Source of the DNA: a virus
Direction: 5' to 3' (one strand)
DNA: 24,635 nucleotides
Virus record (IMG/VR): IMGVR_UViG_3300009551_000116
Span: 1-24,635 of that record
Shown: piece by piece, positions 5,145 through 22,841 of the stretch
Layout of the letters: every line of letters starts with the position of its first letter
How positions within the stretch are numbered: the first letter of the stretch is position 1
Notes under the pieces: model-generated
Told to the model about the DNA's origin: nothing
The model's database searches: none
Seen by the model: the letters and a program-made list of their open reading frames with translations, nothing else
Program-made: the position numbers and the translations under genes

Positions 5145-7304
5145 TTGATCGATTACAAGACGCTCTCGACTACTCGCCACCGCGCGTACGACGGCGACTA
5201 CTGGTGCAAGATTCGCATTCTTTACGAGGGCGCCAAGACGCTGAAAGATGCGTTGGCCACGTCGTCGAAGGTGCGTACCGAGATCTTCCCGCAGCATCTC
5301 GGCGAGGAGCCTGACGTCTACGCGGAGCGGATCAAGCGCTCCTGCTATGTCAACTACCTGTCGCAGTTGGTTGACTACATCATTAGCGTGCTTTTCTCGG
5401 ACCCGGTCAAGGTTACGGCCGGTGGCGACGGTGAAGATCTAAAACCGGGCTCGGTTGCGCCGTTCTACGAGGACTTTTATCGCAACACAGCGCAGCCTGG
5501 GTCGCGCCCGGTTACGTTTAACGAGGCGTTGCGCCGAGTGGCGCTCGACGCGCTGTTGTTTAAGCGTGCATGGCTCCTGGTCGAGTTTCCGAAGAAGCCG
5601 ACCGACGCCGACGGCAATCCGATTGCACCTGCCAGCCGTTATGACGAGGAGCAACTAGAGGCTGGCGGGCAATACAAACGCGCCTATTGCTGCTCGGTCG
5701 ATCCTGAGTGCGTCTATGACTGGGAACGCGCCGAAGACGGCGAGTTGGCGTGGGCGCTGATTCACGACAAGGACTACCCGCGGCCGACTGTTGACGCCAA
5801 ACGCACCACGTGCGTTGAAACATTCACAGTGTACGACCGTAGCACTTGGACGCGCTACGTCTGGGAGTACGACGAGGAAAAGAGCGTCCCCAAGGACACT
5901 GACAAGCCGACGCGAGTGGAGTCGGGCCCGCACAACTTTGGCCGGGTGCCGTTGCTTGATTTCACGATCCCCGATGGCCTCTGGGCTGGCGGCAAGATGG
6001 AAAACATCGCCGTCGAACTGTTCAATAAGCTGTCGGCGCTGTCGTGGGGACAATATCGGTCGCTGTTTCAGGTTATCGCCGTCACACTGCAAGACGCTGA
6101 CCCCAAGAACGGGTTTAGCCCGATCGCGGAAGACCAGAACCGCGCGATCAACCAGACGCTTGGCCCTGGGCGTGTGTGGGTGGGCGCCGAACGCGACCAG
6201 ATTCGATACATCGGGCCTGACTCTGCACCGTTTGCCGAGGCGCGTGCTTATCTCGCTGAATTGCGCGATGAGATGCACCGTGTCCTGCACCAGATGGCGC
6301 AATCGGTCGACAACTCGGGAGCTGCGCTCAAGCGGTCGGGCGAATCGAAGAAGATGGACCGGGCGGCGGGCGCGATTGTGTCGCGCGAGCTTGGTCGCCT
6401 GTTTCGCGAGATTACCGTTGCGATTTACCAGACGATCGCGGCGGGTCGCAACGAACGCGATAAGGTGTGGTCGGTCTCTGGGCTCGAAAGCTACGACGAG
6501 CAGAGCCCGATGGACGTTATCACTGAGGCCGTGCAACTCGAAAATGTGAACATTCCGTCGCCGACTTGGCAGACGATCCATCGGCACAACCTGGCGATCA
6601 AGCTGACGCCAGGCTTGACCGACGAGCAGCGCGACAAGGTTTACGAGGAAATCCAAAACACGCTAGCGTCAACCGCAGCGGCCAAGAGTCCCGACGAACA
6701 ACGCGGCATCGTGCAGGCAACCGCGGCGGCGCATCAAGCGGGTATCATCTCCAGGCAGACCGCGACGCAACACCTCGCGAATATGTTCGGCGTGAAGGAT
6801 GTGGGAGTCGAGCACGCGAAGATCGACGCCGAAGCCGACGCGGCCATGAACCGCGAAGGCGCAAGCCTAATGGGGGGCAAGTCCGGCGACGCTGGGGACA
6901 TGGACGACGGCGCCGAAGGCACAGAAGCCGTTGACGCCGTGTACCAGCAACTCGCCGATGACTTCGAGCCCAAAGCGATCGAGTGGGTGCATGAGGTCGA
7001 TTGGGAAGGCCCGACCGATGTGCCGCTTGAAGAAATCGACTTCTCGGGTCAAGACGCGTGGGCAGCGTCGAAACATGAGGCGAAAGTCAATAAGTTCGCC
7101 AAGAAGATCAGCGACGGGTTCAAGAAGCCGGCGATCCTGGTCAAGGGTCCCGATGGCGGCAAGTATCGCGTGGCTGACGGGCATCATCGTGCGCTGGCCT
7201 ACAAGCAACTGAATAAGCCGGTGCGTGCGTACATCGCGACCGTGGACAAGGACGGATTTGCGGCTGCGATGGAGATGCATTCTAGCCAGAAGGTCCAAAG
7301 CTAA
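5145..7304 (+). CDS. Portal protein with C-terminal ParB-like domain
   Basis: Encodes 719 residues. The first 550 or so look like a portal of the DUF4055/SPP1-gp6-like type: YVNYLSQLVDYIISVLFSDPV near residues 66-88, a long middle clip/stem region (ENIAVELFNKLSALSWGQYR), and helices with GAALKRSGESKKMDRAAGAI near 390-415. The portal ring sits at one capsid vertex and is the channel for DNA. After an acidic linker (about 565-600) comes an extra domain with PAILVKGPDGGKYRVADGHH and RALAYKQLNKPVRAYI; the DGHHR at about 678-682 is the hallmark of ParB/sulfiredoxin-like nuclease folds. The start is a TTG after AGGGAG with good spacing; no ATG is available. The MuF-like gene follows 12 bases later. 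The portal call is strong; the activity of the added domain is unknown. Confidence 0.85.
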   Translation: MIDYKTLSTTRHRAYDGDYWCKIRILYEGAKTLKDALATSSKVRTEIFPQHLGEEPDVYAERIKRSCYVNYLSQLVDYIISVLFSDPVKVTAGGDGEDLKPGSVAPFYEDFYRNTAQPGSRPVTFNEALRRVALDALLFKRAWLLVEFPKKPTDADGNPIAPASRYDEEQLEAGGQYKRAYCCSVDPECVYDWERAEDGELAWALIHDKDYPRPTVDAKRTTCVETFTVYDRSTWTRYVWEYDEEKSVPKDTDKPTRVESGPHNFGRVPLLDFTIPDGLWAGGKMENIAVELFNKLSALSWGQYRSLFQVIAVTLQDADPKNGFSPIAEDQNRAINQTLGPGRVWVGAERDQIRYIGPDSAPFAEARAYLAELRDEMHRVLHQMAQSVDNSGAALKRSGESKKMDRAAGAIVSRELGRLFREITVAIYQTIAAGRNERDKVWSVSGLESYDEQSPMDVITEAVQLENVNIPSPTWQTIHRHNLAIKLTPGLTDEQRDKVYEEIQNTLASTAAAKSPDEQRGIVQATAAAHQAGIISRQTATQHLANMFGVKDVGVEHAKIDAEADAAMNREGASLMGGKSGDAGDMDDGAEGTEAVDAVYQQLADDFEPKAIEWVHEVDWEGPTDVPLEEIDFSGQDAWAASKHEAKVNKFAKKISDGFKKPAILVKGPDGGKYRVADGHHRALAYKQLNKPVRAYIATVDKDGFAAAMEMHSSQKVQS

Positions 7305-7316
7305 GCACGGCCGGCC

Positions 7317-8153
7317 ATGAAGAAGAACGCCGCGCTAGCTGCCTTCCTGCTTCGTCGTCACGCCGAGGTCAAACGAGTCAAGCGGCGCCATGTGCGGCAA
7401 GCGGTTGCGAAGATTCGACCCCATCGGGACGGCTTGGTTACGATGCTGGAGCGCTGGGCGATTGACGGCAAGCTGAACAACGCCAATTCACACGCGGCTC
7501 GCACGTGGGCGATCATGACCGCGGCGGCGCTGGGCCTCATTGCCCGTGAATCAGTTGCTAGTGCATCCAGGGAGACGTCGCAACTCGCCGGCAATCACCT
7601 GACGCGGCTGTCTCGCATCGTCGAACGAGAATTTGATGCGGCTCCACTGGGGCATACCGAACGCGGTTATGAGGCGTCGCCCGAGCACCTGGCCGCGTTG
7701 CAAGCTAACTTCGTAGGCACTACAAGGACCGGCACGTACTCGCGACTGCTCAAGGTGGCCGGCGCAGTTGTTCTTGGCTTGGCGCTCGACGAGTTCGCCG
7801 AGTCACTGGATAGCAAGGACAGCAACGAAGATATAGCTAGCGCGTTGTTAGCTCCGATTGAATCGCGCACCGAGTTGTACATCGTCACCGAGTCCGGCAT
7901 CGCTTACAACCGGGCGCTACATGCCGACGTCGTTGGGCTCGGTTATATGAAGCGCTGGGACACCGAAGGTCACGGTTGCCAGAAGATTTGCACACCCGCC
8001 GACGGTCAGATTCGCCCGATGGGTGAGAACTTCGACATGGGCGACGGTGGCACGACTGGCTTCCCGCCGGCTCATCCGCGGTGTGACTGCTCTTGGATTC
8101 CATGGCGACGCGAGTGGATGAGCGCCGCCGAGTTTGACGACCTAGCCGCATAA
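7317..8153 (+). CDS. Head morphogenesis protein, MuF/SPP1 gp7-like
   Basis: Encodes 278 residues. The C-terminal third carries the MuF pattern: IESRTELYIVTESGIAYNRA, then a cysteine pair (GCQKICTPADGQIRP) and PPAHPRCDCSW with a second cysteine pair. In Mu gpF and SPP1 gp7 this region accompanies minor head proteins that bind the portal and are packaged in the capsid. The N-terminal half is basic and helical with an alanine-rich segment. It follows the portal directly, as is usual. The ribosome site is weak, so translation may be coupled to the portal gene. No toxin-type extension is seen after the MuF region, unlike many Firmicutes relatives; here the extra nuclease-like domain is on the portal instead. 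Confidence 0.85.
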   Translation: MKKNAALAAFLLRRHAEVKRVKRRHVRQAVAKIRPHRDGLVTMLERWAIDGKLNNANSHAARTWAIMTAAALGLIARESVASASRETSQLAGNHLTRLSRIVEREFDAAPLGHTERGYEASPEHLAALQANFVGTTRTGTYSRLLKVAGAVVLGLALDEFAESLDSKDSNEDIASALLAPIESRTELYIVTESGIAYNRALHADVVGLGYMKRWDTEGHGCQKICTPADGQIRPMGENFDMGDGGTTGFPPAHPRCDCSWIPWRREWMSAAEFDDLAA

Positions 8154-8211: not shown

Positions 8212-8970
8212 ATGGCAAACGAGCAGAATCCTCCGAATAACGCCCCGCCCGCTACTGAGACGACCGCGGAACCCGCTACACCAAAGTTTATGACCGCAGA
8301 AGACTTCAACGGCGCCATGACGGCCCGCGATCGTCGGCTCCAACAGCAGCTTGCCAAGCAGTTCGAGGAGTTCCAGAAGACGCTGTCTGCGCGCTTCATG
8401 CAGGCTCCCGCGGCTCCGGTTGACGGTGGCGACGATGGCGAAGGCGTTGCTTCTACTCCAGCCACGCAGCCGGCGATTACGCAGAGTGAGCAGCCGTCGA
8501 AGGAAGTCCTTAAGCTCAAAGACGAAGTTGCGCGCATCAAGAAAGAGCGTCAGCGGGAGCGCGAGGAAATCGAGCGCGAGCGTCAAGCGCGGCTCGTCGA
8601 TGATGCGAATACTCGCGTCCAAGCCGCGTTGTCCGAGGCTGGCTCGTCTGGTCCGCATGCTCGCGCCGCATGGGCGCTTTTGAGCGCGGAGGGGCGCATT
8701 AAGCGCAATGAGCAGGGCGAGGTCTGTATCGAGTTGCCCCGTACCTATCTTGGCAAGACCGAGCCCGAGCTTGTGCCGCTCAAGGAAGCGATCCCCGAGT
8801 GGTTGAATTCGGACAGTGGCAAACTTTTCATGCCGCCGCGTGGTGGCGGCGAAGGTTCGGGCACCGTTGTGCGTGGTAGTGCTCCGCGTACTGGCGCGCC
8901 GCTGTCCAAAGAAGAAGCAAAGCGTGAAGCGCAGAAGGCGCTGACCAGTTTCGTTCTTGGCGGGCGATAG
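8212..8970 (+). CDS. Capsid scaffolding protein
   Basis: Encodes 252 residues, strongly hydrophilic with no globular core visible. It opens with a Pro/Ala/Thr-rich segment (MANEQNPPNNAPPATETTAE), has a central coiled coil at about 97-142 (EVLKLKDEVARIKKERQRE and a run of Glu/Arg) and a basic, glycine-rich end (EEAKREAQKALTSFVLGGR). This composition and the place directly before the major capsid gene are characteristic of phage scaffolds, which guide capsid assembly and are then removed. No protease motif is visible here or in neighbours, so release without cleavage, or cleavage by a protein outside the window, is likely. A strong AGGGAAGGGAA ribosome site precedes the ATG. Confidence 0.82.
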   Translation: MANEQNPPNNAPPATETTAEPATPKFMTAEDFNGAMTARDRRLQQQLAKQFEEFQKTLSARFMQAPAAPVDGGDDGEGVASTPATQPAITQSEQPSKEVLKLKDEVARIKKERQREREEIERERQARLVDDANTRVQAALSEAGSSGPHARAAWALLSAEGRIKRNEQGEVCIELPRTYLGKTEPELVPLKEAIPEWLNSDSGKLFMPPRGGGEGSGTVVRGSAPRTGAPLSKEEAKREAQKALTSFVLGGR

Positions 8971-10201: not shown

Positions 10202-10543
10202 ATGGCTTCTAGAGAAATTATCGTTCGCAATATGCCGTTTGCGACGGGGACTTCGTCCCCGGGTGCGGCGGTCTACATTGGCGATATGGATCCGGCTACG
10301 GTCGTCCTTCAGGCCGGCGGGACGTTCGACGCCACTGTGCAGTTCCAGGGTAGCCTGGATAAGCAAGTGTGGTACTCGATCGGAGCCGCGACTACGATCG
10401 ACGTCGGTGGGCTTGTGAACATGACCACCACTGGCACGAGCCCGATGGCTGCGGCTGCTTGGGTGCGTGTCCAGACGCCGTCGGATTACACCTCGGCGTC
10501 GGCCCCCGTCTGCACCGTCGCCGGCTATCTCCGCGCCTCGTAA
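10202..10543 (+). CDS. Small beta-rich protein, possible capsid decoration protein
   Basis: Encodes 113 residues with a strong AAGGAG ribosome site, 12 bases after the major capsid stop. The sequence is almost all beta strands: VVLQAGGTFDATVQFQGSL, WYSIGAAT, VNMTTTG, then AAWVRVQTPSDY and a final VCTVAGYLRAS. This strand order, with an aromatic at 'VWYSI' and 'WVRV' near the end, suggests an Ig-like or jelly-roll beta sandwich. The last domain of the protein at 11427-12044 has a similar layout. Co-transcription with the capsid protein, before the terminator at 10550, suggests a protein needed in high copy such as a capsid cement or decoration protein. Exact family not recognised. Confidence 0.72.
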   Translation: MASREIIVRNMPFATGTSSPGAAVYIGDMDPATVVLQAGGTFDATVQFQGSLDKQVWYSIGAATTIDVGGLVNMTTTGTSPMAAAAWVRVQTPSDYTSASAPVCTVAGYLRAS

Positions 10544-11016: not shown

Positions 11017-11427
11017 GTGGCACTCACCGACGCGCAAAAGGACTCCGTTCGGCAGTATGTCGGATGGACCTTTCGCTTTCGCCAAACCGATAGTCAACTG
11101 GAGTTGGCGTTGAACGCGGTTGATTTGGACGCCACCGTCCAGACGACGGTTATCGCTATGCTGGCGGCTCTGGCGAACATCGACGCGGCGATCTTGGATG
11201 CGTATTCGCGCATCAAGGCTAAAGCGCTCGTCGGCGAGATCGAACTGATGGAATCACAGGAGATCGCGATCCTGCGCAGCGAGGGCCGCCGTAACGTCGG
11301 GCGTCTCGCTGGCTATCTCGGCGTGCCGGTCAAGCAGGATGTGTATTCCAGTGCGTTGCCGACGCACTTCGCTGGATACGCTGGGCCCTATGGTGGTACC
11401 GGCGGTAACTTGCCGAGGCTCGGATAA
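11017..11427 (+). CDS. Putative head-tail connector protein
   Basis: Encodes 136 residues from a GTG at 11017, preceded by GGAAAAG. It is mostly helical: ALTDAQKDSVRQYVGWTF, a middle of short helices (ATVQTTVIAMLAALANID) and ILRSEGRRNVGRLAGYLGVP near residues 87-106, a phrase like those in phage head-tail adaptor proteins (HK97 gp6-like group), which bind below the portal and link head to tail. The C-terminal 20 residues are glycine-rich and flexible. The gene lies between capsid and neck genes and its stop overlaps the next ATG (TAATG), in agreement with the call. Family membership is by eye only. Confidence 0.6.
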   Translation: MALTDAQKDSVRQYVGWTFRFRQTDSQLELALNAVDLDATVQTTVIAMLAALANIDAAILDAYSRIKAKALVGEIELMESQEIAILRSEGRRNVGRLAGYLGVPVKQDVYSSALPTHFAGYAGPYGGTGGNLPRLG

Positions 11428-12044
11428 TGGCTCGTATCTTCAAAGTGCCCGTGCAACAGTTCGTGACCAATCCGACGCTTACCAGCGTTACCCCCACCGG
11501 CGGATCGGCCACGACTTGGACATACAAAATCGTCGGAGTGGATGCCAGCGGCGGGACCACAGCGGCTAGCGCTGGCGTGTCTACGGCAGCCGGCGCCGCT
11601 ACGCTCGACGGTACGCATTTCAATACCCTTGCCTGGACCGATCCGGCTAACGCGGTGTCGATCAAGATTTATCGCACCGCTGCCGGCGGGACTCCGAATA
11701 CGACTGGCTTGATTGGCACCGTTGCCGCTGGCGTGCAGACATTCGTTGATAGTGGGTTAGCCGGTGACGGCTCTACCGCGCCCGCGGCAAACACGACTGG
11801 CATCGGGGCAGCGGTCGAATGCGCGTCGCTTCGAGATAAGAGCGTGCAGATTGACGGCACATTCAGTTCGACTAATCAGATTTTCGGCTCCATCGATGGC
11901 ACCAATTGGCAGGGCGAGGGATCGTCTGGGTCTACCAAGACCGTCGTGAATATTACGACATCATGGGTGTTTGTTCGCAATCAGCAGACCGCATTTACCA
12001 GCGGCGTTCCGACTATTACTCTTTGTGGACATGAAGAGAGGTAA
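11427..12044 (+). CDS. Two-domain virion protein: FN3-like module plus beta-sandwich
   Basis: Encodes 205 residues. Residues about 15-130 form an FN3-like beta sandwich: TWTYKIVGVDASGGTTAAS, then GAATLDGTHFNTLAW, VSIKIYRTAAGGTPNTTG and FVDSGLAGDG. The same residue pattern reappears as an insertion in the tail sheath (about 14250-14570). The remaining about 75 residues (VQIDGTFSSTNQIFGSI, TSWVFVRNQQ, TITLCGHEER) form a second beta-rich unit resembling the small protein at 10202-10543. FN3/Ig-like modules on virion proteins are thought to help weak attachment to cell-surface sugars; the C-terminal unit probably anchors it to the particle. I infer a head or neck decoration protein. Start overlaps the previous stop. 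Confidence 0.75.
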   Translation: MARIFKVPVQQFVTNPTLTSVTPTGGSATTWTYKIVGVDASGGTTAASAGVSTAAGAATLDGTHFNTLAWTDPANAVSIKIYRTAAGGTPNTTGLIGTVAAGVQTFVDSGLAGDGSTAPAANTTGIGAAVECASLRDKSVQIDGTFSSTNQIFGSIDGTNWQGEGSSGSTKTVVNITTSWVFVRNQQTAFTSGVPTITLCGHEER

Positions 12045-12047
12045 ACA

Positions 12048-12359
12048 ATGGCCATCAACGCAGCCATTTCGTTTCAATTTATGTTCATTGATGATGCAAC
12101 CAGTGAATCAATGACCATCGACCTCGTTCGCGGTCCTGTTGGATACGCTCCTGATTTGTATACATCTGGAATGGTGCTTAGTTCTCGGTTTGATTATGAG
12201 CCAGTCGACGTGGCTAGCCTGAGTTGCACAGATGGCTCTAATTCGTTTAGTGTCTCCGCTGCGTCGTTGGCGCATGGTGTCTTAACTCTATCAGTTCCTT
12301 CTGATGGTAATAGAGTTGCTGGACATCATATGCACGTCTCTGGATATTTGCTGTTTTAA
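12048..12359 (+). CDS. Hypothetical protein on an AT-richer segment
   Basis: Encodes 103 residues with AGAGGT before the ATG. It is beta-rich (AINAAISFQFMFIDDATSES, VASLSCTDGSNSFSV, GVLTLSVPSDG) and ends HMHVSGYLLF. No family is recognised. The composition stands out: by hand count the gene is about 45 percent GC, against roughly 65 percent or more in the first 120 bases of the following gene, and its codons use many A/T third positions. Its stop abuts the next start (TAA then ATG), so it is in the same transcript. It looks like a more recently acquired accessory virion gene placed among neck genes; a host-range or decoration role is only a guess. Confidence 0.7.
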   Translation: MAINAAISFQFMFIDDATSESMTIDLVRGPVGYAPDLYTSGMVLSSRFDYEPVDVASLSCTDGSNSFSVSAASLAHGVLTLSVPSDGNRVAGHHMHVSGYLLF

Positions 12360-12812
12360 ATGGGCACCATTCGCGACGGTCTGCTCCCCGTCGTCGACGC
12401 CCTGCGCCAGTTGCCGAGCGACTTCGGTATCCGTCGCTACTCCGTTACCCTGCGCTCGCGTGCATGGTCCGGTGGCTCTCCTGGCCTTGGCACCGCTACC
12501 GATACCGATACGCTGATTTCACCGGCTCCTCGGGTCCGCGTCTTGTCCCCCAAAGAGGTCGCTTCGTCGGGCGGTACGTATCAGGACGGCGACTTCATGA
12601 TCGAGAAGATCACGCCGGCTTACACGTCGCCGACTACGGGCGGGTGGGCCCCGAGCGTGTTGCAGCAGGTCCCCGGCGCTAGCGCTGACGATGTGGTTAT
12701 CGTCATGGTTGGCGACGAGGGAACGATCGAATGCACGGCGGTCAAGTTCTTCTTCGACCGGCCGTTTAACTATCGTGTCGTCGCGCGTGCTCGCCGCGTG
12801 GTCAGCGGATGA
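12360..12812 (+). CDS. Hypothetical head-tail joining protein
   Basis: Encodes 150 residues. It begins MGTIRDGLLPVVDALRQLPS and then is beta-rich (IRRYSVTLRSRAW, PRVRVLSPKEVASSGG, DFMIEKITPAYT, VVIVMVGDEGTIECT, FNYRVVARARRV). The layout of a short helix followed by a beta barrel fits several small neck or head-closure proteins. It precedes, and overlaps by ATGA, the HK97 gp10-like gene, and is followed by the likely tail terminator, so a role in closing the head or building the head-tail joint is reasonable. Family not recognised. The start directly after the previous stop lacks a clear ribosome site and probably depends on coupling. Confidence 0.68.
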   Translation: MGTIRDGLLPVVDALRQLPSDFGIRRYSVTLRSRAWSGGSPGLGTATDTDTLISPAPRVRVLSPKEVASSGGTYQDGDFMIEKITPAYTSPTTGGWAPSVLQQVPGASADDVVIVMVGDEGTIECTAVKFFFDRPFNYRVVARARRVVSG

Positions 12813-13300
12813 GCGTCGTCGACGTCCCGCTTGGCAAGGCGGCCGAAGTCATCGCCCGAGACGAGAAGCGCCGCGTTGCGTCGGTCTACTCGGCGATCGT
12901 GGATGCTTCCAATGTCGGTGCCAAGATTATCAGCGCGCGCGCCCCGCAAGACATCGGCAAACTGGCGGCCTCGTCGCATTCCGAAGGCAACGGCATCGGG
13001 CAGGTTATCCAAACGATTGTCGATGCGCCTTATGCGGCGTGTGTCGAGTTGGGCACGCGTCCGCACTATCCACCAATTGCTCCGCTCATCGACTGGGTTC
13101 ACCGGCACATCGGTTCGTACTCGTCGGTCGGCGCTGGTTCGTCGGCTGACGCAGATCGAGTCGCCTACAGGATTGCGCTCGGTATCCAGCGCAAGATCGG
13201 CGAGCGGGGTACTGAGCCTACATTCTTTGTGCGCGACTCACTGCCCGACATGGCTAAGACGCTGCACTCGTTCATGGCGCTACGACTCGCCGGGTGGTGA
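12809..13300 (+). CDS. HK97 gp10-like head-tail joining protein
   Basis: Encodes 163 residues. Matches to the gp10-like family by eye are a long N-terminal helix (AAEVIARDEKRRVASVYSAI), a beta pair with APQDIGKLAASSH, then YAACVELGTRPHYPP, PLIDWVHRHIG and a conserved-type ending KIGERGTEPTFFVRDSL. In this family the phrase 'VE-x-GT-xx-H-xx-P-P' and the terminal 'G-x-P-x-F' are typical. These proteins are placed at the neck or tail tip junction and help tail attachment. The start overlaps the previous stop (ATGA), and the next gene, a likely tail terminator, follows after 3 bases, consistent with the standard order connector, gp10-like, terminator, tail tube/sheath. Confidence 0.82.
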   Translation: MSVVDVPLGKAAEVIARDEKRRVASVYSAIVDASNVGAKIISARAPQDIGKLAASSHSEGNGIGQVIQTIVDAPYAACVELGTRPHYPPIAPLIDWVHRHIGSYSSVGAGSSADADRVAYRIALGIQRKIGERGTEPTFFVRDSLPDMAKTLHSFMALRLAGW

Positions 13301-13303
13301 TGC

Positions 13304-13927
13304 ATGTCGGTCGCAGATCCACGAGCAGCCGCGCGCAACGCGTTGGCGACCTGGCTTACGTCTAGGCTCACCGGCGTCGCTATCTCGGAATCGTGGCCGA
13401 CTCCCGGCAAGAAACTGACCGTTCCCGCCGTGACGGTGATTGCTGGCCCGCGTATTCGGCCGTTGTATCACCAACCGCGTTTGTGGAAGTCCACGATTAC
13501 ATCGGGATCCGCTGGTACAGCACTGTACAGCTACGGGCGCGCTGAAATGGACTTGCAACTCGATTGTTGGGAGGCGTTCCCGGCGTCTCGAGATGTCCTC
13601 GCGCAACGCGTGGAAGCGGCCGTGAACGTGCCGCCGACCGTGAGCCTAGGCATCAGCGGACTGACTGACTTTAGCGCCGCCGGTGGTCTCGTGCTCGCGA
13701 TGCCGAACTATTACGGCGTCTATTGCGAATATATCAGCGAGCCGATTACTGGCGTGCTTCCCGAAAATTCAAATATGGCTCAAGCGGGCGAGTGGCGGCA
13801 GACATTCACCGTCAAGGCCAATCTATTTCTTGTCAATCAAGACTCGGTGCCGTTGCTGCAGACCGCAATCGCGGAACTCGGACTCAACGGCGAAACTCCC
13901 GAAACCATCACCATCGCGTCGACGTAG
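13304..13927 (+). CDS. Putative tail terminator / tail completion protein
   Basis: Encodes 207 residues with GGTGGTGA before the ATG. It starts with a helix (DPRAAARNALATWLTSRLTG), followed by KLTVPAVTVIAGPRIRP and a series of strands (AEMDLQLDCWEAFPASRDVL, WRQTFTVKANLFLVNQ). A helix then an alpha/beta sandwich with 'D-L-Q-L-D-x-W' is the shape of tail terminator (gpU-like or gp17-like) proteins, which cap the tail tube and bind the neck. The position right before the sheath supports this. Length is a bit above the usual 130-180 residues, mainly from a mid-section loop (about 105-145). No single diagnostic motif, so the call is by layout and place. Confidence 0.65.
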   Translation: MSVADPRAAARNALATWLTSRLTGVAISESWPTPGKKLTVPAVTVIAGPRIRPLYHQPRLWKSTITSGSAGTALYSYGRAEMDLQLDCWEAFPASRDVLAQRVEAAVNVPPTVSLGISGLTDFSAAGGLVLAMPNYYGVYCEYISEPITGVLPENSNMAQAGEWRQTFTVKANLFLVNQDSVPLLQTAIAELGLNGETPETITIAST

Positions 13928-13951
13928 GTCGGCGGCTAATAGGAGTGGCGT

Positions 13952-15766
13952 ATGCCTTTGTTCGTTGACGCGATCAGCGACATTCAGCAGCCTGGCGTTT
14001 TTGCGATTGAGGTCGCGTCTCCGCTCGTCGTCGAAGGCGTGCCTAATGGCTATATCGGCTATTCGTTTCAGTCGAATTGGGGTCCGGTCAAGACGGCTTA
14101 TTTGCCTTCGAGCCAGGGCGACCTGATCGCGACCTACTTCCCGCCGGGATCGCCGCATACGTCTACGGGTTACTATGGCATCGTGCGACGCAAGAAGTTC
14201 AACGCGGTCATGGTGCGCGTGCTCGGGGGTAGCGCTGGCATCGAACCGCCGATGATTACCGCCGTCACGAACGTTGGCACCCCCGGGGCTACGGCGTACA
14301 CGTACGTTGTTACCGCCGTCAACGCGGCTGGCGAAACCATCGGGTCGGAAGCGTTCAAGACGTCGACGGGTAACGCGACGCTGGATAGTACCAACAAGAA
14401 CACGATCACTTGGTCTTCGGTGACGGGCGCTGTCTCCTACAACGTCTACCGAACCACTTCGGCTGGCACGCCGTCGTCGACTGGCAAGATCAACGCCTCG
14501 CCGGTGATGACTGCCACCTTCACTGATACCGGCCTCGCTGGTTCGGGTTCGGTGCCGGCGTCGAATACCACCGGCTACACGCAAGCGGTTGCATACCTGC
14601 TCGATTCCAGCAACGTCGCCGTGGCGCGCTTGACTGCGATCTGGCCGGGTACGCTGTCCAATACCGCGCTGACCGCCCAGGTGGAAGCCGCTAGCGATGG
14701 TGTGGCCAACCATTTTGACCTTGTGGTGACGCTCGCCGACTCGAGCACGGGCAGCACGTCGGAGCGCTTCCCGAACCTGCAGACGCAGGCTACGAGCATC
14801 CTGCCCAACACGACTACTTCGCGCCTGCTCGCGAAGTTCGAACTCGTCAACACGCCCAGCACGCGACCGGCGAACGCCACTTACGCCTTTGCCGGTGGTT
14901 CGGATGGCAGCGCGGTTGCTGCGAGCGATTATCAGGCTGCGCTTGATCAGTTGGCGTTGCGCGATGACATTCTCGTTGTGGTTACCGATGATGTCGGTGA
15001 CTCGATTCGTTCGGCAGTTAACAGCGACCTGTTTGATCACGCGGCGGCCAAGACTGACCGTATCTGCATGCTGCAGGGGCCGGCTAGTCAGTCACTGAGC
15101 GCCACGTTGACCGATAAGGCGAACTATGCTGGCGACCGCGTGCGCTACGTGGGTAATTGGGTCACCGTTCTCGACGACCAGGGTAATGCGGTTACTTCGC
15201 CGGCCGCTACGTTCATGGCGAGCGCGTATGTGAATCTTGAGCCGCAGGAATCGCCCGCATGGTGGGCGGACTCGGTTACAGATTTCTATACCGGCATCAA
15301 CTCGATCTTGTCGCCGGTGTTTTCGAGCGCTGACGATGGCGCGCAGAAGGCTTGCACGCAGGCCGGCGTCACGCTGGTGATTCGTCGCCCGAGCGGTCGC
15401 TATGCCTTCCTGAATGACCGCACCACGTCGAGCGAGATTAGCCGGCGGTTCGGTCTCACGCGGCGAATCAAAGACTTCTTGGCTAAGTCGTGGTCGAACG
15501 CGCTGGATCCTTATGTCAACGGGCCGAACCTGCCGAGCCTTTGGCAGCAGATCAAGATCGGACTCGACAACTTCAATAATCTACAGGTTGCCGCGGGGCG
15601 CCTGATCGCCGTGGACCCGACCGATATCGTGTCGGGTAACAACAACACGACGCAGACGGCCGGGCAGTTTATTTTCAAAGTGACCGCCAAGAGCCCGACT
15701 GCGATGGAAGACATTATTGCCATGGTTAACGTCGGTCCCGGCGTTACGGGCGTGACATTCCAGTAG
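13952..15766 (+). CDS. Contractile tail sheath protein with FN3-like insertion
   Basis: Encodes 604 residues. Sheath features: an N-terminal segment GVFAIEVASPLVVEGVPNGY, GYSFQSNWGPVKTAYLPSS, MVRVLGGSA, then AWPGTLSN-like TAIWPGTLSNTALTAQV, a middle with NAVTSPAATFMASAYVN, and the C-terminal domain with NDRTTSSEISRRFGLTRRIK, RIKDFLAKSWSNALDPYV and FNNLQVAAGRLIAVDPTDI. The sheath contracts on infection and drives the tube into the cell. Residues about 99-207 interrupt the usual path from VRVLGG to the PGTLSN strand with an FN3-like module, the same kind as in the protein at 11427. AGGAG lies 9 bases before the ATG. It makes the phage a myovirus. Confidence 0.93.
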   Translation: MPLFVDAISDIQQPGVFAIEVASPLVVEGVPNGYIGYSFQSNWGPVKTAYLPSSQGDLIATYFPPGSPHTSTGYYGIVRRKKFNAVMVRVLGGSAGIEPPMITAVTNVGTPGATAYTYVVTAVNAAGETIGSEAFKTSTGNATLDSTNKNTITWSSVTGAVSYNVYRTTSAGTPSSTGKINASPVMTATFTDTGLAGSGSVPASNTTGYTQAVAYLLDSSNVAVARLTAIWPGTLSNTALTAQVEAASDGVANHFDLVVTLADSSTGSTSERFPNLQTQATSILPNTTTSRLLAKFELVNTPSTRPANATYAFAGGSDGSAVAASDYQAALDQLALRDDILVVVTDDVGDSIRSAVNSDLFDHAAAKTDRICMLQGPASQSLSATLTDKANYAGDRVRYVGNWVTVLDDQGNAVTSPAATFMASAYVNLEPQESPAWWADSVTDFYTGINSILSPVFSSADDGAQKACTQAGVTLVIRRPSGRYAFLNDRTTSSEISRRFGLTRRIKDFLAKSWSNALDPYVNGPNLPSLWQQIKIGLDNFNNLQVAAGRLIAVDPTDIVSGNNNTTQTAGQFIFKVTAKSPTAMEDIIAMVNVGPGVTGVTFQ

Positions 15767-22154: not shown

Positions 22155-22841
22155 ATGCAGATTATCGCCGCGCGCTCTGCGCAGCCGCGCCGTATTACGA
22201 TCAGCACTTCCGCGACGCCTTCGACCACGGCCACTGACTACGCCGTCGAGCGCGCCGACGGTGGTTACTCACCTATTGGCGTTAGTCTCGCGTGGCTTGT
22301 CGGCGCCAAGTCGGTTGAACTCGCGCTGTCGAATCCGCTTCTCGAAGGCATCACCTACACCGTCTCGATCCCTGGCGACGTTGACGCCCCGTCGTTCAAT
22401 CTCGTCTACTACGGGCAGGCTGACCCGGCTCCGATTGCTCCTGCGAACGATGAGGACCCGGCAGCCGAAGCTTACGGCGTCTCGATTGACTGGCTGTCGG
22501 GCGGGCTTACCGGAGGCGGCGATCTTGTCGAGGTTCGCGGGCGCCAGTGCCTGCTTGATGACCTGATGTCGATCGCGGTCATCGAACCTGGCGAACTCTT
22601 CCACCGTCCCGATGACGGCGGCTCGCTTACGCAAAACGTGAACGGCCCCGCGACGCCTCAACAACTTGGGCAGATTCGCAGCCGGCTCAAGCGGCAATGG
22701 GCGAAAGACTCTCGCGTGAAGTCGGTTGACTCGGTGGACTTCGTCGTGGATCAGGGTGGTCAAATTCAAATGCGCTCCAAGATTACCGAGTCGGTCACCG
22801 GCGAGCAGATCATGGCGAATGTCCCGGGGAGTAACGGCTAA
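22155..22841 (+). CDS. gp25-like baseplate wedge protein with N-terminal extension
   Basis: Encodes 228 residues with AAGGGG before the ATG. The last 120 residues carry the gpW/gp25 pattern: a helix with LLDDLMSIAVIEPGELFHRP, then a short polar stretch and LGQIRSRLKRQWAKDSRVKS, VDSVDFVVDQGGQIQMRSK. In T4 gp25 this is an adapter that joins the sheath to the wedge. The first 110 residues (YAVERADGGYSPIGVSLAWL, then ITYTVSIPGDVDAPSFNLVY) are a beta-rich addition beyond the usual 110-150 residue protein. Order (LysM protein, gp25-like, J-like) is the standard baseplate set. The stop overlaps the J-like start. Confidence 0.82.
   Translation: MQIIAARSAQPRRITISTSATPSTTATDYAVERADGGYSPIGVSLAWLVGAKSVELALSNPLLEGITYTVSIPGDVDAPSFNLVYYGQADPAPIAPANDEDPAAEAYGVSIDWLSGGLTGGGDLVEVRGRQCLLDDLMSIAVIEPGELFHRPDDGGSLTQNVNGPATPQQLGQIRSRLKRQWAKDSRVKSVDSVDFVVDQGGQIQMRSKITESVTGEQIMANVPGSNG

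Follow-up and report, generated by a model that had tools for sequence, protein, structure and literature searches.

Do two different parts of one virus particle carry the same small domain, and if so, did they acquire it together? The question is raised by a stretch of viral DNA of 24,635 nucleotides (IMG/VR virus record IMGVR_UViG_3300009551_000116, positions 1 to 24,635; this whole stretch is called the window below). A sequence-only reading of the window had proposed that a module resembling fibronectin type III (FN3) or immunoglobulin (Ig)-like domains occurs both in a small neck-region protein, P0001, and inside the tail sheath protein, P0002, where it would be an insertion. We find that the module is common to the two proteins and interrupts the sheath, and that its copies were probably gained or lost separately in relatives, not as a matched pair. 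Coordinates are given in Table 1.

P0001 and the tail sheath share a module

Residues 13–131 of P0001 and residues 97–214 of P0002 form a common module. When compared by BLASTP, P0001 13–139 and sheath 97–220 were identical at 57 of 128 positions (45%) and similar at 75 of 128, with a score of 78.6 bits and an E-value of 2e-21. Both proteins are visibly rich in Thr, Ser and Ala, and the likeness might have been a matter of composition, as between any two beta proteins of this kind. However, the top score of the sheath module against P0001 after 1000 shuffles was 24.3 bits. In addition, a profile built from 19 modules of other phages only was run against the window frames and recovered P0001 and the sheath strongly (E 1.6e-34 and 2.5e-33 respectively), while the third-best frame reached E 0.1; the highest score among 2000 shuffled modules was 5.4 bits. 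The E-value, the shuffles and the independent profile together refute chance similarity, to which we give practically no credence. The shared module stands as it had been proposed. An all-against-all BLASTP comparison of 24 window proteins detected two pairs only, this one and a weaker one between the protein at 10202–10543 (P0003) and the C-terminal half of P0001 (E 5e-5).

It had also been stated that the bases of the two copies differ more than the residues and that the copy is not very recent. The statement about bases does not hold literally, as base identity (52%) is above residue identity (45%). The statement about age does: third codon positions are 37% identical and the same codon is used at 19 of the 52 identical residues, indicating that the copies are old.

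The sheath copy interrupts a conserved core

P0002 passes the curated cut-off of PF04984, the sheath subtilisin-like domain (33.7 bits, cut-off 31.4), and matches the tail sheath family phrog_23 over residues 13–593 (E 8.9e-20). The top Foldseek matches to its model were solved sheaths. Its score against the sheath C-terminal domain PF17482 was 16.5 bits, under the curated cut-off of 26.9.

The claim that the sheath module is an insertion was confirmed by two relatives, L011 and L012, whose sheaths are ~50% identical to that of the window (48–60% in the core) and lack exactly residues 93–206. Where the window reads RVLG, then these residues, then TGY, the two relatives read RVLG followed directly by TGY. 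The sheaths of L017, L006 (42% identical to the window) and G008 (L039/L044; 38%) have 111–114 residues at this site, and four distant sheaths (L049, L051, L052 and L053) are also without the module. The sheath module is therefore a true insertion that interrupts a conserved core. Its site is presumably that of domain I of T4 gp18. In a tree of sheath cores from which the module columns had been removed, the presence of the module needs two changes, with the branch order not fixed. The TGY kept in L011 and L012 corresponds to the TTGY with which the copy in the window closes, a hint of loss over primitive absence, but three residues are too few to claim this.

P0001 joins the module to a jelly roll

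P0001 is a two-domain protein, composed of the module and a separate, predicted YomS-like jelly roll. Residues 123–203 of its model (predicted local distance difference test [pLDDT] 69) matched YomS (6i5o; Z 9.7, root-mean-square deviation [rmsd] 1.9, 80 aligned) and XepA (6i56; Z 9.2, rmsd 2.0, 81 aligned), at 14–16% identity. In L050–L053 the jelly roll is encoded alone: two jelly-roll-only proteins of ~100 residues are found where the window has P0001 and the protein at 12048–12359. Their genes are flanked by homologues of 11017–11427 and 12360–12812 in L050, L052 and L053; in the short contig L051 they are placed upstream of the 12360–12812 homologue only. In L022/L049 two modules are followed by the jelly roll, and the gene lies between homologues of 7317–8153 and 8212–8970. 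G008 encodes a full-length P0001 homologue, 62% identical, directly after the portal gene. The module count in the family is thus zero in L050–L053, one in the window and G008, and two in L022.

The window itself holds a stand-alone relative. P0003 is 29% identical over 96 residues to the C-terminal ~80 residues of P0001, and it scored E 6.5e-28 against a jelly-roll profile of which its own row is part. In L022/L049, a sequence weakly related to the P0001 jelly roll (11238–11663; E 1.2e-9) lies at the end of and after the capsid gene, a position approximately that of window 10202–10543.

Because the jelly roll is encoded alone or with two modules in relatives, P0001 is likely to resemble a decoration protein of the Hoc type, tentatively placed by gene order and fold on the head or neck. 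Two different proteins do carry the module, as had been claimed, but 'neck protein' is better replaced by head or neck decoration protein, given the stand-alone jelly rolls.

Predicted fold of the module

Both copies are predicted to be beta-sandwiches that resemble Ig-like domains. The sheath module was modelled with seven strands, mostly at pLDDT 75–87. In P0001, residues 9–117 matched the SPO1 capsid chain 9vel_B (Z 8.9, rmsd 3.2, 102 aligned) and residues 10–117 the phicrAss001 muzzle (7qol_P 163–282; Z 7.2, rmsd 3.2, 97 aligned). The sheath module matched the same muzzle domain (7qol_P 161–290; Z 6.2, rmsd 3.5, 104 aligned). Structure matches with Z below 9, as all of these are, may reflect a common arrangement. 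Residues 163–292 of the muzzle are immunoglobulin-like domain 1 in the relevant section of PMC10172136.

Sequence comparisons were less informative. Against the PDB the module matched the Fn3-like protein 3mpc marginally (E 0.003–0.017), and P0001 matched nothing above chance. Pfam fn3 (PF00041) gave no match at E ≤ 1 to P0001, the sheath or any of five module rows, and the relative L033 scored 19.8 bits, below the cut-off of 25. Neither module was assigned to a family by Pfam or PHROGs, in which matches were at chance level only. The label 'FN3-like' is thus reasonable for the predicted fold, because of the SPO1 capsid and phicrAss001 muzzle matches; as a statement of Pfam fn3 membership it nevertheless fails.

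The two copies are not a matched pair

The relationship of the copies was assessed in a tree of 31 modules, which excludes repeated loci from a single contig, L003 (almost a duplicate of the window), L029 (identical in this respect to L027) and all domains with E >1e-9. The search for relatives used the module's own motifs, and tblastn retained 24 of the 59 pattern stretches; the sample is therefore biased towards copies in which these motifs are preserved. The tree is poorly resolved: only four of its 28 inner branches were well supported, and the bootstrap had not converged. The window P0001 copy grouped with its G008 homologue (95/92), and the window sheath copy was nearest to the L017 sheath copy. 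Forcing the two window copies together made the tree 60 log units worse (approximately unbiased [AU] test, p 0.0003). The window copies are 46% identical to each other, whereas the module of L031, which is unrelated, shows 53% identity with the sheath copy and 56% with the P0001 copy. Intragenomic duplication of the window pair is rejected by the trees and by these identities. Similar domains within one phage genome need not be duplicates.

The presence of each copy was then compared across eight contigs in which both the sheath and the P0001-type gene could be judged. Both modules are present in two (the window and G008), the sheath module only in two (L006 and L017), the P0001-family module only in one (L022/L049), and neither in three (L051, L052 and L053). 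The module occurs a single time in the entire 85-kb contig of L006 and a single time in the entire 63.5-kb contig of L017. L011 and L012 start after the head genes and were judged for the sheath only; L050 stops before the sheath.

That the copies arose together, by intragenomic duplication or joint acquisition, would account for their joint presence in the window and G008. Yet each copy is found without the other in relatives, and the AU tests reject the pairing of the sheath and P0001 copies in G008 (p 0.032) as they do in the window. They also reject a pairing of the P0001 copy of G008 with its capsid-adjacent copy (p 0.003); the pairing of the capsid-adjacent and sheath copies is not rejected (p 0.55). 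We consider a joint origin very improbable, and the proposal that the two copies belong together is not borne out. By the sequence-only reading, presence of the insertion in all close sheaths without its partner would have told against the proposal. This holds in part: the insertion does occur without the partner, in L006 and L017, but not in all close sheaths, as L011 and L012 show.

The module in other virion proteins

In G008 the module is found in three proteins. The third is a homologue of L006 4932–5528 and adjoins the capsid gene; in this repeat protein (L038, about 13298–14131) the module is cleanly inserted after ~residue 157 of the L006 homologue. L011 has the module in two tail-end open reading frames, and elsewhere its hosts are proteins of tail fibres or spikes and proteins without a named family. 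G008 also encodes a homologue of window 12360–12812 (L038 15046–15777) that is extended at the C terminus by an Ig-like domain of the Big_2 family (28.5 bits, cut-off 22.8), so that in this relative the region is decorated by a further Ig family.

Among isolated phages, the sheath module matched 54 of 50,697 records, all annotated as major tail protein (51 for Arthrobacter and 3 for Bacillus); the similarity was weak, with E-values of 2e-4 to 9e-3 among the matches listed. Searches of these records by tblastn with the whole sheath and the whole P0001 gave nothing at 1e-5, and the L016 and P0001 modules gave nothing at 0.001 and 0.01 respectively. In prokaryote genomes, 179 pattern stretches included no sheath relative.

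Display or structural reinforcement

The explanation that we favour, and hold to be probable, is that a promiscuous FN3/Ig-like domain of ~115 residues has been plugged repeatedly into outward-facing virion proteins, was independently gained or lost, and probably binds surfaces weakly. In the sheath it separates the N-terminal portion of the core from the rest and would lie on the side away from the tube. As Evseev et al. (2022; PMC9230969), whose study includes 112 sheath models, place additional Ig-like sheath domains away from the tube, the likeliest position of the module is on the exterior of the extended tail, as a decoration. It would be dispensable for sheath assembly and contraction. 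In P0001 the jelly roll would be the virion anchor and the module an outward N-terminal arm, as in Hoc. By analogy with the 936 phages and SPP1, the modules would most likely touch polymers of the cell surface or the environment weakly at many points and so aid adsorption.

Several points weigh against this explanation. The whole-sheath model is weak (pLDDT 58). Monophyly of the sheath copies was not rejected (AU p 0.12), so that a single old insertion with loss in L011 and L012 is as possible as several gains. The L006 contig stops a short way upstream of the head genes, and a P0001-like gene beyond that point could go unnoticed. The sample of eight contigs is small, and two of them, L052 and L053, are almost duplicates of each other.

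The modules might instead be mainly structural, the sheath copy tying neighbouring subunits together and the P0001 copy cementing the head or neck, with no surface binding. Stabilisation is offered as an alternative role for sheath domains in the pertinent part of PMC9230969, citing contacts in phage 812, and the P0001 jelly roll resembles the KHP40 capsid cement protein (7dou; Z 6.9, rmsd 2.4, 83 aligned) and a Bordetella phage capsid jelly-roll chain (3j4u; Z 6.5, rmsd 2.9, 80 aligned). However, Z-scores near 7 may indicate a common arrangement only, the close sheaths of L011 and L012 are without the module, and its occurrence in proteins as different as fibres, spikes and major tail proteins is easier to reconcile with display than with a single fixed contact. 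A mainly structural role is thus possible but doubtful.

An extension of display that we think rather unlikely is that the module is one interchangeable cassette of a coat, used in selected combinations at set sites (the sheath, the N terminus of the decoration protein, the capsid-adjacent protein and tail-end proteins), so that the whole contractile particle, and not its tip alone, makes the first weak contact with the cell. If so, the empty sheaths of L011 and L012 would be a natural null for measuring the contribution of the sheath coat. In the passage of PMC9230969 concerned, the role of Ig-like sheath domains, adhesion or stability, is unsettled. It becomes testable here, because related sheaths either carry or lack the domain at a single exact junction, and the same family occurs on other proteins of the same phage.

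Other genes in the window

The 12048–12359 protein had no Pfam or PHROG match. The portal gene (5145–7304) encodes a C-terminal ParB-like domain at residues about 644–715 (phrog_1033, E 8.8e-8), and a similar ending is visible in the G008 portal (L038 7743–9623). Upstream of the packaging genes, 167–877 encodes a sigma-70-type factor with regions 2 and 4 over the Pfam cut-offs. The baseplate-like protein at 22155–22841 has a weak N-terminal match to the Ig-like domain Big_5 (E 0.008, below cut-off).

Table 1. Positions of the module, its host proteins and related genes in the window.
Feature	Coordinates	Strand	Basis
P0001, 205 aa, N-terminal FN3/Ig-like module and C-terminal jelly roll	11427..12044	+	Translation, model, homologues
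FN3/Ig-like module of P0001, residues 13-131	11463..11819	+	Sheath identity, outside profile, model
C-terminal jelly roll of P0001, residues 123-205	11793..12041	+	YomS/XepA model matches; stand-alone homologues L050-L053
P0003, 113 aa, stand-alone jelly-roll relative, directly after major capsid gene	10202..10543	+	Sequence similarity to P0001
103-aa protein after P0001, no family detected	12048..12359	+	Synteny
Tail sheath protein P0002, 604 aa	13952..15766	+	PF04984, phrog_23, Foldseek
FN3/Ig-like module inserted in sheath, residues 93-206 by empty-site comparison	14228..14569	+	Absent in L011/L012; seven strands

Comparison with known systems

The window provides a clear example of a known phage habit and not a new system, since sheaths that bear Ig-like domains have already been published, as have phages that use a single type of module on several parts of the particle. 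In the open literature we found no phage described as having the same FN3-like family on its sheath and on another of its proteins, in searches that were not all aimed there. Like the type 2 and type 3 sheaths of PMC9230969, P0002 has a conserved N- and C-terminal core with an extra beta-sandwich between; the empty site and the seven predicted strands agree with this. It differs from that description, in the section cited, in that its domain shares a recognisable sequence family with another protein of the same phage and in that close empty-site sheaths exist in its lineage.

Virion Ig-like and FN3 domains, the subject of Fraser et al. (2006), are treated in the corresponding parts of PMC9022992 and PMC8718954 as promiscuous plug-ins of outward-facing proteins, which the window module resembles, and the FN3 domain of the SPP1 tail is dispensable according to the latter. 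The list in PMC9022992 gives five protein classes (tail fibre, baseplate, tail tube, major capsid and Hoc); as cited, it omits the sheath and small jelly-roll decoration proteins, and the window copies are unmatched by Pfam fn3. T4 Hoc and its relatives combine a capsid-binding domain with a variable number of Ig-like domains, as the passage on Sf14 gp20 in PMC11821841 describes, and the P0001 family varies comparably. Its putative anchor, however, is a predicted YomS-like jelly roll, and the likeness to Hoc is one of architecture. With the C-terminal domain of YomS and XepA, in the portion of PMC6834076 that describes it, residues 123–203 share a predicted fold, at the low identity given above.

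The 936 lactococcal phages carry carbohydrate-binding modules on the neck, the major tail protein and Dit, two of which were shown to bind host cells (PMC6669499). Like the window lineage, they distribute a single type of module over several parts of the particle, and the combinations vary; theirs, in that account, are BppA-type or other modules on siphophages, whereas the window has an FN3/Ig-like module on a contractile sheath. The nearest matches in isolated phages are the major tail proteins of Arthrobacter siphophages (Korravirus for phage Urla), at about 39–43% identity over 46–65% of the sheath-module query. The tails of these phages are non-contractile and the tube is their outer surface, whereas in the window the module is carried by a contractile sheath.

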